Source: Gammaproteobacteria bacterium (GTDB lineage Bacteria; Pseudomonadota; Gammaproteobacteria; SG8-11). Taken from it: a stretch of 46,148 nucleotides of DNA. Positions 5,887-15,581 of this stretch are shown here, piece after piece (positions within the stretch are counted from its first letter, which is position 1; each line of letters begins with the position of its first letter). The DNA lies in NCBI GenBank assembly GCA_030610155.1, contig JAUWSG010000005.1, positions 1 through 46,148 of the forward strand, in the 5' to 3' direction. The position numbers and the translations under genes are program-made. The notes below the pieces were generated by a model. That model saw nothing but the letters and a program-made list of their open reading frames with translations. It made no database searches and was not told the DNA's origin.

Positions 5887-5932
5887 ATGATTGAGATAGG
5901 AGTTAGTGCCAAGCGCTAAGCATTAATAATGC

Positions 5933-6069
5933 CCGTCATTCCGGCGTATGCCAGAATCCAGGGATGATGACAGGGACGAATAGGGTGCGACAGTCATGCG
6001 TAGTGGAAAGTAACGTGGTTATAGAGGGTGCAGTGGTAGTCTGGATTCCGGTATGCACCGGAATGACGG
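5933..6069 (+). repeat. MITE-like element, copy 1 (about 137 bp, terminal inverted repeats)
   Basis: This element begins CGTCATTCCGGCGTATGCC and ends GGTATGCACCGGAATGACGG, so its ends are inverted repeats of about 27 bp. The ~80-bp interior, with GACAGTCATGCGTAGTGGAAAG as landmark (split here by the base limit: GACAGTCATGCG then TAGTGGAAAG), is shared by six copies in this window. It carries no coding frame of its own. It lies downstream of speE. Confidence 0.85.
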
Positions 6070-6112
6070 TTCTTAGTTAGCACTTAGCACTATTACTCAG
6101 CACTACCAGACT

Positions 6113-6248
6113 CGTCATTCCGGCGCATGCCGGAATCCAGCGATGATGACAGGGGCGAGTAGGGTACGACAGTCATGCGTAGTGGAAAGTAACGTGGTTA
6201 TAGAGGGTGCAGTGGTAGTCTGGATTCCGGTGTGCACCGGAATGACGG
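6113..6248 (+). repeat. MITE-like element, copy 2
   Basis: Same orientation as copy 1 and only 43 bp behind it. The terminal inverted repeats are nearly perfect (CATTCCGGCGCATGCCGG on the left, CCGGTGTGCACCGGAATG on the right). The interior differs from copy 1 at only a few bases. The pair fills the gap between speE and the convergent DUF4124 gene. Confidence 0.85.
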
Positions 6249-8567: not shown

Positions 8568-8615
8568 GAAATAGTGAGTAAGTGTCAAGTACTCGTGCAA
8601 AGTTCAAACTAATAT

Positions 8616-8750
8616 CGTCATTCCGGCGCATGCCGGAATCCAGACTACACTGCACCCTCTATAACCACGGTACTTTCCACTACGCATGACTGTCGTACCC
8701 TATTTGCCCCTGTCATCATCCCTGGATTCCGGCATGCGCTGGAATGACGG
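8616..8750 (-). repeat. MITE-like element, copy 3 (inverted relative to the others)
   Basis: Same ~135-bp element, but its interior reads as the reverse complement (CTATAACCAC ... TTTCCACTACGCATGACTG). Terminal repeats CATTCCGGCGCATGCCGG and GGCATGCGCTGGAATGACGG are intact apart from one base. It lies between the CDGSH gene and the amtB terminator, both of which point into it. Confidence 0.85.
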
Positions 8751-8848
8751 GCCAGGTTGTGTTTAGTGCAAGTGAGTGTGTGAGTGCTGGTGCCTGGAAA
8801 TTAAGTATGTTGTTTTAGTGGAATAGCTTGTATTTTCAAGAATAAAAA

Positions 8849-11182: not shown

Positions 11183-11500
11183 CAGGGTTCGAGAATCGGG
11201 GTAAAGATGGTGAAACAGTTAGCTTGATCATCCTGGAAAGATTGTTTTACCGCAAAGGCGCAAAGAACGCAAAGAAAACCAATTAGATTTTAAAAACTGT
11301 TGAGAGCGGTTTGCTAAATAACTGTGGCTCACCATCATAGTGAGCCATGAATACTTTATTTTTTTAAAAATTAATCTTGCTTTGCGTTCTTTGCGCCTTT
11401 GCGGTTAATTTCACTGCTTAAAACAGCATAAAAGAAAGCGGGAAGTAAGCTAAGGCAGGTGATAGTCAGGTATTGTTCACGAATAGAGAAATAATACTGT
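11183..11500. repeat. Long palindromic repeat, family B copy 1, in ubiK-comM gap
   Basis: The 318-bp gap holds two ~27-base arms, 11249-11275 (ACCGCAAAGGCGCAAAGAAC then GCAAAG) and 11380-11405 (its reverse complement), which can pair almost perfectly. Between them is a second hairpin, TGGCTCAC (11325-11332) with GTGAGCCA (11340-11347) and a 7-base loop. No coding frame is apparent. comM expression must start in the ~90 bp behind the repeat or read through it. Confidence 0.8.
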
Positions 11501-13052: not shown

Positions 13053-13205
13053 ATTCACCGCAAAGGCGCAAAGAACGCAAAGGAAATCATTTTGGTTTTA
13101 AAAACCTCAAGATTTTTTCTTACTTTGCGTTCTTGTCGCTCCGCACATCCATGTGCTCACGCGACATAAGAACTTCCCTGTTCAAATGCGCCTTTGCGGT
13201 GAAAT
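13053..13205. repeat. Long palindromic repeat, family B copy 2, with nested hairpin insertion
   Basis: Arm 1 (13055-13084, CACCGCAAAGGCGCAAAGAA) pairs with arm 2, but arm 2 is interrupted. CTTTGCGTTCTT ends at 13134 and TGCGCCTTTGCGGTGAA resumes at 13187. The ~52-bp insert contains nested inverted repeats GTCGC/GCGAC and GCACAT/ATGTGC, bordered by GTTCTT and AAGAAC. It lies between convergent comM and the PagP-like gene and may end both transcripts. Confidence 0.75.
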
Positions 13206-13235: not shown

Positions 13236-13838
13236 TTATTTTGACAAGGTTGTTTCCAATTGCAGGAAAAAAACGTGCGTTGTATCGTTGTTTATTTTTG
13301 GGATATATGAAAGGTTAACGCCGATGGCATCTGTGCCTATGCCAATAACCGGCATGAAGGTCACTAATGGTTTACCTGCTATGTAAGACGGGCTTTGTAT
13401 GACCGTAATCACACCACCATATTTAAAATGCAAATTATCCAGGTTTTTGCTGAGCAATACCCGTTTGTTTAGGCCGCCGCTAATGTATTTGGCGTCAGTA
13501 TTGAAGCTATCAAGGTATTTTCCGGCAGTGACATAGGGTATAAAATTTTTATACTGGTCAAATTCATAGATAAACCCATAACCTCTGTTATCTTCATTGT
13601 ATTTTTTTTCTTCTGCCGTCACATTACGACTTGTTTCATGACAATCTGATGGGATCTGGTTAGGGTCAAGGTTTTGCGGGACCGCTGAATCACACAAGTA
13701 ATTAATATTAGTATTAACTACCTGATAGGAACTACTTGAATGAAAGCTTTTGCCATTGATAACAAAGCTGAGTTTCCCTGCAAGGGCAGCATTTGGCATG
13801 CTTGTCGCTAACGTCAGAAACATGAGAAAAATCCTCAT
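13236..13838 (-). CDS. Putative PagP-like outer-membrane beta-barrel protein
   Basis: A 200-residue exported protein. The ATG at 13838 is preferred over longer starts because GGAGGAG stands eight bases upstream and a signal peptide (ending NAALA, residue 20) follows at once. It was not recognised at first sight. The last ~120 residues can be laid beside E. coli PagP as I remember it: YNEDNRGYGF, then YVTAGKYLDSF (PagP AMAFKDSW), then P-rich MPVIGIG and a SYIPK turn before the final strand THVFFLQLETTL. The catalytic Asp-Ser pair of PagP would be Asp110-Ser111; His33 (KSFHSS) or His67 could be the histidine. Alternating hydrophobic residues fit an 8-stranded barrel. A lipid A acyltransferase role is a hypothesis; a structural or unrelated barrel remains possible. 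Confidence 0.5.
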   Translation of the reverse strand: MRIFLMFLTLATSMPNAALAGKLSFVINGKSFHSSSSYQVVNTNINYLCDSAVPQNLDPNQIPSDCHETSRNVTAEEKKYNEDNRGYGFIYEFDQYKNFIPYVTAGKYLDSFNTDAKYISGGLNKRVLLSKNLDNLHFKYGGVITVIQSPSYIAGKPLVTFMPVIGIGTDAIGVNLSYIPKINNDTTHVFFLQLETTLSK

Positions 13839-14210
13839 GACGGTTTCTCCTCCCGATCCGCGAGACACTATTTTTATCTCGCTGTTCTTGTTATATAGAA
13901 TGATGCGTTTGGCGGTGACTTATTTTTGTGTGTACTGCCAATTGCCATGGTTCCCCAACCAGATTGCAGTTTATCATTATGTTAAAATAAATGTTATTTA
14001 GCACTCTATGGACGTGCTTCGATGCCGCATAAATTGGTGTTAAAGGTAGGTAGGTAAATTGCTGGTAAATCAATAAGTAGTGACGACTAGTTAATTGCGG
14101 GTTGGAGAAACAGCGGGTAGCTAGGATGGAAATCTTACTTGGACTGTACTGCATATGTTTATTTTTAATATAGAAATATTATGAACAAGTTCTAAGCAGC
14201 ACTATCAGGC
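13839..14210. other. Intergenic region upstream of the PagP-like gene
   Basis: This 372-bp AT-rich stretch should hold the promoter of the leftward PagP-like gene. I see no convincing promoter pair, regulatory site or conserved coding frame. Short frames on both strands lack ribosome binding sites. Confidence 0.4.
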
Positions 14211-14347
14211 CCGTTATTCCGGCGCATGCCGGAATCCAGGGATGATGACAGGGACGAACAGGGTGCGACAGTCATGCGTAGTGGAAAGCAGCGTGGTTAT
14301 AGAGAGTGTATTGGTAGCCTGGATTCCGGTATACACCGGAATGACGG
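14211..14347 (+). repeat. MITE-like element, copy 4
   Basis: A 137-bp copy with CATGCCGGAATCC on the left and GGATTCCGGTATACACCGGA on the right. The left end reads CGTTATTCC instead of CGTCATTCC. The interior retains GACAGTCATGCG and GTGGAAAG, with several private substitutions. Confidence 0.85.
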
Positions 14348-14389
14348 TTTTTGTAGGCGCTCAGCACTAACACTTAACACTACTAAACT

Positions 14390-14526
14390 CGTCATTCCGA
14401 CGTAGGTCGGAATCCAGGGATGATGACAGGGACGAACAGGGTACGACAGTCATGCGTAGTGGAAAAGTAATGTGGTTTTAGAGGGTGCAGTGGTAGTCTG
14501 GATTCCGGCATGCGCCGGAATGACGG
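14390..14526 (+). repeat. MITE-like element, copy 5
   Basis: It lies in direct orientation 42 bp behind copy 4, the same tandem arrangement and nearly the same spacing as copies 1 and 2. The left hairpin differs (CCGACGTAGGTCGG in place of CCGGCGCATGCCGG), yet both of its arms changed together, so the stem is preserved. Confidence 0.85.
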
Positions 14527-14559
14527 GCCTGGTTAGAACTTAGCACTAACCTGATGTAT

Positions 14560-15123
14560 TCAGGAAATATCGTTTGCGGCGTCCAGCAGGGAAGGGAGCT
14601 TGCTTTTTAAATACCGGTCTTCTGATCTCAGTAGTTCTTCTTTTAATACTTCATACAAGGCTTGTTTGTATTGGCGGGCCTGAGATCGTTGGTAACGTTT
14701 TGTTACCAGTCGATGGTCTGCAATCGCATCTTCATTGCCTTGATCTGCGGCCAGTTTTAACCACTTTAGAGCCATCATACGATCACGTTTAACACCTTTG
14801 CCTGATTCGTATAGCCAACCAAGAAAATTTTGTGCGCGCGCATAACCTTTGTTTGCAGCTTTTGTGTACCATTTAATGGCTTCTTTATAATCCTCTTTGA
14901 CCTCGATTCCAAATTCATGCATATATGCAATATTGAATTGTGACTGCAAATTCCCTTCGTTTGCTAATTGTTGCCAGATCTTGAGTGCCTTTTTATAGTC
15001 GCCATTGCTATAGGCTGATGAAGCGTCAGACATACTGTCTGCCCACACATTGGCTGTCGTTAGCAGCGCTAAGCAGCATGTCATGAACAAGAATTTTATT
15101 ATCTGAGTGTTAGCCACCTGCAT
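14560..15123 (-). CDS. Secreted Sel1-like repeat protein
   Basis: A 187-residue protein with a signal peptide (residues 1-28, ending VWA). It carries three helical Sel1/TPR-type repeats: SAYSNGDYKKALKIWQQLA, then QFNIAYMHEFGIEVKEDYKE, then NFLGWLYESGKGVKRDRMMA. The C-terminal 60 residues are charged and helical, without a known motif. Sel1 repeats are protein-protein interaction scaffolds, often in the periplasm. AGGAG lies just two bases before the ATG at 15123, which is tight; the ATG at residue 14 would leave a shorter signal. Repeat copies 4 and 5 lie directly downstream and copy 6 lies upstream. Binding partner and pathway cannot be read from the sequence. Confidence 0.8.
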   Translation of the reverse strand: MQVANTQIIKFLFMTCCLALLTTANVWADSMSDASSAYSNGDYKKALKIWQQLANEGNLQSQFNIAYMHEFGIEVKEDYKEAIKWYTKAANKGYARAQNFLGWLYESGKGVKRDRMMALKWLKLAADQGNEDAIADHRLVTKRYQRSQARQYKQALYEVLKEELLRSEDRYLKSKLPSLLDAANDIS

Positions 15124-15347
15124 CGCTCCTGTTGATAAAAAGGGGATTTGGCCTTAATAAAGTCATCGGCCGGGACGCAAGAAACGTTAGGGTAAAAAAG
15201 GCTCATGCCGGGTTTTAAATTAACGAATATAAGGGTGGATTTGTTAAATAATTCGTTTTAAAACAGAGGTATAGTCTAAACTTGTTATATGGTTGGCAAG
15301 GCTTAAAGCAGCGTCCTGAAAGGGCGATACATTTAGAACTTCTAAGC

Positions 15348-15495
15348 CCGTCATTCCGGCGCATGCCGGAATCCAGGGATGATGACAGGGGCGAAACAGG
15401 GGCGAATAAGGTACGACAGTCATGCGTAGTGGAAAGTAACGTGGTTATAGAGGGTGTAGTGGTAGCCTGGATTCCAGTATGCACCAGAATGACGG
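15348..15495 (+). repeat. MITE-like element, copy 6 (longer, internal duplication)
   Basis: At ~148 bp it is longer than the others because GGGGCGAA occurs twice in the left interior (GACAGGGGCGAAACAGGGGC, then GAATAAGG). The right terminal repeat has decayed (CCAGTATGCACCAGAATGAC). It lies 86 bp upstream of pgl. Confidence 0.85.
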
Positions 15496-15581
15496 TTTTA
15501 GTTAGAACCCAGCACTAGTACTTAACACTGTCCGGGCACACGATGACGGCGATTGGTTTGATTATAAATACGGAGGCGTTT

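Follow-up and report, generated by a model that had tools for sequence, protein, structure and literature searches.

A gene at 13236..13838 on the reverse strand of the window, the 46,148-nucleotide stretch of DNA analysed here, encodes a 200-residue protein that is probably an outer-membrane phospholipid:lipid A acyltransferase, as predicted from its sequence and modelled structure, and belongs to a branch of the PagP superfamily lacking the N-terminal helix. Enzymes of the PagP kind, which transfer a fatty acid to a surface lipid from a phospholipid, reshape the exterior of the Gram-negative cell. The computed support comprises sequence homology, a predicted fold that resembles PagP and the conservation of His33, Asp110 and Ser111; against the assignment stand Pfam and NCBIfam scores below their cut-offs, a serine (Ser149) in place of an arginine, and the lack of a helix and of a terminal aromatic residue. 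The branch is already known by annotation, since its short relatives pass the Pfam PagP cut-off and phage members are annotated as PagP-like. The new features here are a proposed lineage-specific lid and the lost arginine, making the protein a variant rather than a new kind. The solved structures and mechanistic papers that we met concern the helix-bearing Escherichia coli form. A branch with the catalytic residues but without the helix and the A-B side prolines represents a natural test of the parts needed for substrate entry, the lid proposed for the window lineage can be put to the test as well, and the rule that locates the catalytic histidine by residue spacing fails where the loop is enlarged.

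Homology to PagP and distribution of relatives

Evidence from the single sequence for homology to PagP is weak but above chance. The Pfam PagP model (PF07017) matched the window protein at E = 9.4e-5 with 22.3 bits, 1.7 bits short of the curated cut-off of 24, and NCBIfam PRK11045 matched it at E = 4.4e-6 with 26.1 bits, far under its curated cut-off of 155. PagP was the only family matched in either collection, except for one weak and unrelated NCBIfam row (E 0.07). The protein alone gave no match in the PDB with phmmer and none in PHROG. In an eight-row alignment (A2), which omits the classical-type loci L004 and L005 as well as L011 and L006, whose match is interrupted by two in-frame stops, the Pfam PagP model matched seven members at E values up to 0.01 and PHROG 3600 'PagP' matched six, the window protein being outside those six. 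A 31-row profile (A4) was built from 29 of 32 named loci, L015 and the window protein, leaving out L046 (near L045), L075 (distant) and L049, which lies on the same contig as the L007 used in A2. Against the PDB, this profile matched the PagP entries 1mm4, 1mm5 and 1thq at 9.8e-13 and 3gp6 at 1.2e-12, aligning histidine on histidine and Asp-Ser on Asp-Ser of the solved E. coli PagP, and PagP was the sole family found at E values up to 1. Profile-profile comparison of the family with eight classical PagPs (hhalign) gave a probability of 98.6 and E = 1.1e-15. Judged from these profiles, the window protein is homologous to PagP.

A first scan of genome contigs with the single window protein gave no match. 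In a search of 55 genomes the gene was found in three including the window's own; one of the others holds the congener orthologue, which is 63% identical, and the other a distant form matched at 1e-14. The Pfam PagP model matched 11 of the 274 genomes in the class, the window's own included, and ten exceeded the cut-off, seven of these with the short form. A mixed profile, which also caught classical PagPs, matched 25 of 398 genomes of the phylum, and the species-genome collection yielded the 32 named loci. Outside the class, the short PagP-like profile was matched in seven genomes of family f198 (L020/L055 and others), at least one of them from the Zetaproteobacteria. While tblastn of phages with the window protein gave no match, a short relative retrieved five Burkholderia phage records, of which phage DC1 is known from its match row only.

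An alignment of 49 rows, part of all the family matches found in the genome searches, holds two sequences of the window genus, 32 short, two Burkholderia phage, one viral contig, nine classical and three distant rows; by source these are 30 named short loci, L012, L018, L075, L038, L039, three phage or viral sequences, nine classical sequences and the window pair. The short proteins (L044-L074) come from MAGs labelled Gammaproteobacteria or subgroups thereof, with one each from the Zetaproteobacteria and Betaproteobacteria. They share with the window protein a strand A directly after the signal peptide, the motifs G-x3-H, NE-x-N-x-G-x-G and D-S and the C-terminal half, and differ in a His-to-Asn distance of 7 to 12 positions, the lack of a loop cysteine pair and a retained strand-E arginine (32/32). 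In a tree of 48 of the rows (without L075), the classical group and the window pair each received support of 100/99, and a branch supported at 98/94 divides the classical and phage rows from all others (short, window, distant and viral). The window pair sits on a long branch (1.37 changes per column) in a region where long branches meet, which leaves its precise position uncertain. The window protein is a member of a PagP-like branch in which the N-terminal amphipathic helix is missing and asparagine stands where classical PagP mostly has proline.

Predicted fold

AlphaFold2 with A4 produced a model of the window protein (pLDDT 83.8, pTM 0.72) with eight barrel strands at residues 20-33, 82-93, 99-109, 115-130, 136-148, 158-168, 172-179 and 189-199, and an extra hairpin (37-49/66-78) between the first two. 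Foldseek against the PDB placed 3gp6 first (E 2.3e-7, TM 0.62/0.78, rmsd 6.1), and VIA-align gave Z 17.4 for 3gp6 (rmsd 5.3 Å over 151 residues) and 15.9 for 1thq (3.5 Å over 144 residues). The predicted fold is thus an eight-stranded barrel with PagP crystal structures as its first matches, and together with the A4 profile search of the PDB these comparisons bear out the original prediction of a divergent PagP-like protein. The fold match alone is not decisive, because other eight-stranded barrels score close (OprF Z 14.6, a designed barrel and OmpA 14.2, PagL 14.0) and the PagP NMR model 1mm4 reaches only Z 10.6; fold match plus sequence profile is enough for a PagP-like assignment. A model of a short relative, in which the window protein was not used (pLDDT 87.1), likewise had 3gp6 as its first Foldseek match (E 2.3e-9, TM 0.71, rmsd 2.9) and PagP first in VIA-align (Z 17.4 at rmsd 6.8 and 16.2 at 2.9). 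The 50 matches listed for the window model in BFVD were mostly unnamed phage proteins, with uninformative TM values by query length of 0.18-0.51.

The resemblance to PagL (2erv, rmsd 2.7 over 126 residues at the Z of 14.0, a level common to other eight-stranded barrels) raises the reading of a PagL-type lipid A deacylase on a similar barrel, as does a His-x-Ser at residues 33-35, which we take to be the PagL motif. This reading, already disfavoured, is very improbable: the residue two after His33 is not serine in the congener (H-T-N), no PagL row appeared in the Pfam and NCBIfam scans at E values up to 10, although HMMER filters may drop weak matches, and the A4 profile found only PagP in the PDB.

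Proposed catalytic residues

Asp110-Ser111 (13506..13511, reverse strand), which had been placed at the catalytic position, indeed aligns by profile with Asp76-Ser77 of PagP, with the serine conserved in 49/49 rows and the aspartate in 45/49; the viral contig and three distant rows have asparagine or serine at the position of Asp110. Asn-Ser replaces Asp-Ser, with the conserved histidine kept, in the viral contig (L015:4603-5013) and in two bacterial genomes (L038 and L039). The histidine aligned with PagP His33 is His33 of the window protein (13740..13742, reverse strand), at the end of strand A and invariant in all 49 rows. For the E. coli enzyme we assume the residue numbering His33, Asp76 and Ser77.

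The original prediction preferred His67 (13638..13640, reverse strand) as the catalytic histidine, since it precedes Asp110 by 43 residues, the PagP spacing. Both histidines and this distance are confirmed in the sequence, but His67 is present in just one of the 49 rows, being arginine in the congener and a gap in the remaining rows, and lies inside a lineage-specific insertion, by which it is ruled out as a catalytic residue. From the conserved histidine to the aspartate, the classical rows count 43 or 45 residues, the short rows 36-42, the two phage rows 35 and the window protein 77. The spacing argument misleads because the stretch after His33 exceeds that of most relatives by 34 to 41 residues, and the value of 43 for His67 is a coincidence. 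By conservation, His33 and not His67 is proposed as the catalytic histidine; the protein has further histidines at His137 and His188. Strand A of the model terminates at His33, and Asp110-Ser111 comes immediately after strand C, so that both sites would lie at the extracellular rim if both termini are periplasmic.

Several PagP motifs proposed for the C-terminal half are present as described, namely YNE (80-82), GYGF (86-89), YLDSF (108-112) and YIPK (178-181). The literal 'P.MPVIGIG' does not occur, the sequence actually being ...KPLVTFMPVIGIG. Similarly, the final strand proposed to be aromatic does contain FF at 190-191, but the C-terminus reads ...TLSK and is not aromatic.

The long branch of the window pair and the loss of an otherwise kept arginine could reflect a PagP-fold barrel that has given up catalysis for a structural or binding role. 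We consider this improbable, as both species of the window genus retain the histidine, aspartate, serine, YNE, Gly86 and Gly88 and share a strand A (21-33) identical at 13/13 residues. In addition, the dN of 0.28 between the two genes against a dS of 2.2, which is saturated, suggests purifying selection.

Enlarged loop L1 and cysteine pair

The loop L1 (residues 34-79; 13602..13739, reverse strand), predicted to form the 37-49/66-78 hairpin, is enlarged only in the window protein and its congener among the 49 rows, with 34 to 41 more residues than the loop of most relatives. The hairpin is modelled at low confidence (block-mean pLDDT 60-76). The two cysteines noted earlier in the enlarged loop are likewise found, as Cys49 (13692..13694) at the end of the first hairpin strand and Cys66 (13641..13643) at the start of the second, both encoded on the reverse strand and both kept in the congener. 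With the register taken from the strand ends, Cys49 would face Cys66, an arrangement that fits a disulphide.

Between the window protein and its congener, 25 of 46 L1 residues are identical (dN 0.42, dS not computable), compared to 55 of 84 in the core (dN 0.20, dS saturated), and L1 thus diverges faster than the core. No long loop was recovered elsewhere: among 369 genomes of the class, 11 others match a profile of the two sequences, from column 72 or later only, close to the insertion's end or past it, and of 11 loci that were read eight gave a motif-bearing ORF, 0/8 with the loop. Two of the five genomes of the family, which belong to a single genus, have the gene; the three without it have completeness values of 79%, 99% and 78%. 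Among the sequences examined, a long L1 with two cysteines is confined to the window genus.

Other departures from classical PagP

A 19-residue N-terminal amphipathic helix is described for PagP and its homologues in PMC2887491. It is absent from the window protein, with no helix between the probable signal peptide and strand A in either the window or the short-relative model. The window protein and E. coli PagP (CrcA; 1thq, 3gp6, 1mm4) share the eight-stranded barrel, His33, the Asp-Ser pair (Asp76-Ser77), the F-G side prolines and a YNE and GxG after strand A, in an alignment covering most of the barrel. They differ, aside from the helix, in the distance from the histidine to the asparagine of NE (48 positions versus 14 in E. 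coli PagP), the L1 cysteine pair, asparagines for prolines and a strand-E serine for arginine.

We presume that Pro28/Pro50 (A-B gap) and Pro127/Pro144 (F-G gap) of PagP flank lateral gates for lipid. The places of Pro28 and Pro50 are taken by Asn28 and Asn84 in the window pair, and hold proline in seven of the nine classical rows. In the short rows the Pro28 place holds asparagine (29/32) or serine (3/32) and the Pro50 place always asparagine (32/32). The F-G side prolines are kept in the window protein as Pro163 and Pro180. The other two classical rows, of Legionella type (L078 from a Legionella adelaidensis plasmid, with which L005 groups), likewise lack the A-B side prolines, having serine and alanine instead. 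They share the histidine and Asp-Ser with the window protein, and differ in having an N-terminal stretch before strand A, an L1 of classical length (14 and 16), alanine at Gly88 and a retained arginine.

The strand-E arginine, in an [S/T]AR or MTR motif, is present in 9/9 classical and 32/32 short rows, with Ser149 at this position in the window protein, and is also missing from the phage and viral rows. Burkholderia phages BcepIL02 and CSP3 encode PagP-like proteins (147 and 156 aa) that resemble the window protein in this loss and as short forms with FGKSHH, YNELN and KDS; these proteins differ in lacking the L1 insertion, and their tree position is unsure. Burkholderia phage proteins are already annotated as PagP-like or as palmitoyltransferases (PMC10269572 and PMC9144972). 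No literature on a helix-less PagP or an L1 disulphide was found in a search that covered few subscription journals. At the C-terminus, the window protein has lysine, the short rows phenylalanine (11/32), tryptophan (2/32) or polar residues, and the classical rows mostly phenylalanine (7/9). Ending in a polar residue is not unique to the window protein, because most short rows do so too. As the asparagine replacements and helix loss are common to the short branch, the features special to the window genus are the loop and the arginine loss.

Taken together, these changes could describe a PagP-type enzyme re-tooled for a different or gated acceptor, with a disulphide-capped hairpin as a lid over the active site, an A-B gate built of asparagines and no strand-E arginine, so that acceptor choice or redox state would control the reaction, a suggestion that we consider tentative and rather unlikely.

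Proposed function and acceptor

The window's own genome has two matches to LpxC and three to LpxL/M-type acyltransferases, on account of which it should make lipid A. The second LpxC match (G000:C121:11897-12697) scored 272 bits against 374 bits for the main match in the same genome, and may be a paralogue or lie on a contaminating contig. Since lipid A is expected and the gene neighbourhoods are little alike, the protein is read as a probable phospholipid:lipid A acyltransferase. The main rival to lipid A as acceptor is a PagP-type acyltransferase that uses phosphatidylglycerol or a lineage-specific surface lipid, by means of the L1 lid and the lost arginine. The retention of the catalytic residues within changed surroundings (long L1, Ser149, Asn28 and Asn84) and the faster evolution of L1 than of the core are in keeping with such a shift, but the asparagine replacements and helix loss are common to the short branch and the genome should make lipid A, and we regard another acceptor as rather unlikely.

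As a lipid A acyltransferase, the protein would be exported, lose its signal peptide and insert as a barrel in the outer membrane. A stray outer-leaflet phospholipid would slip laterally into the barrel through the F-G gap, flanked by Pro163 and Pro180, and its acyl chain would be measured in the lumen above Gly122. Gly122, kept in 44/49 rows, is the equivalent of Gly88, which we take to be the floor of the hydrocarbon ruler in E. coli PagP, and because this position is kept the chain transferred is probably palmitate. At the outer rim His33, Asp110 and Ser111 would hand the chain on, in all likelihood to lipid A as acceptor, and the L1 hairpin directly after His33, tied by Cys49-Cys66, may act as a lid tuning acceptor access.

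Gene boundaries and genomic neighbourhood

The coding sequence runs on the reverse strand from an ATG at 13838 to a stop ending at 13236; its congener orthologue (L002) is truncated by the end of a contig. A good ribosome-binding site, GGGAGGAG (13847..13854, reverse strand), lies 8 bases 5' of this ATG; because it fits ATG 13838, that start is preferred over an upstream GTG at 13868, which is disfavoured by the GGGAGGAG spacing. Residues 1-20 (13779..13838, reverse strand) form a probable signal peptide by inspection, with cleavage at ALA|G and a helix at 2-12 in the model.

On the 5' side, 721 bases away on the same strand, is a Sel1-repeat gene (14560..15123, reverse strand), to which we ascribe no mechanistic role; its order and orientation are kept in the one congener carrying the PagP-like gene. 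The other flank is occupied by a Mg-chelatase/ComM-type gene on the opposite strand. Clustering of ORFs of at least 90 aa around 30 named relatives with the window neighbours revealed no operon partner that would give a function for the window gene. Among the 25 clusters listed, the largest span 9, 8 and 8 loci, all from short-branch MAGs, and the one gene of the window to appear encodes an ABC ATPase, whose cluster draws on three sources. Few neighbours are common to the window and the relatives, as expected for a stand-alone enzyme. In nine of the 30 named loci (L060, L062, L064, L065, L067, L068, L070, L073 and L074) a similar protein, a small lipoprotein by its start in L060, is encoded on the same strand, 0.4 to 3.3 kb away from where the short PagP-like match begins; none was seen in the window.

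Repeats lie on both sides of the gene. The 5' region at 14200-14550 holds an intergenic repeat rich in palindromes, in two head-to-tail copies with a spacing of about 179. Its part 14200-14465 gave 117 aligned pieces in the window's own genome, counting its own copy and cross-matches, with further window copies including 5931-6188, 8581-8761 and 15346-15529; this is a dispersed REP- or MITE-like family. On the 3' side, an element of 150 bases (13054-13203), whose inverted ends match perfectly over 17 bases, is likewise a dispersed repeat, with 74 aligned genome pieces, its own included, and is also found at 11246-11297 and 11377-11408.
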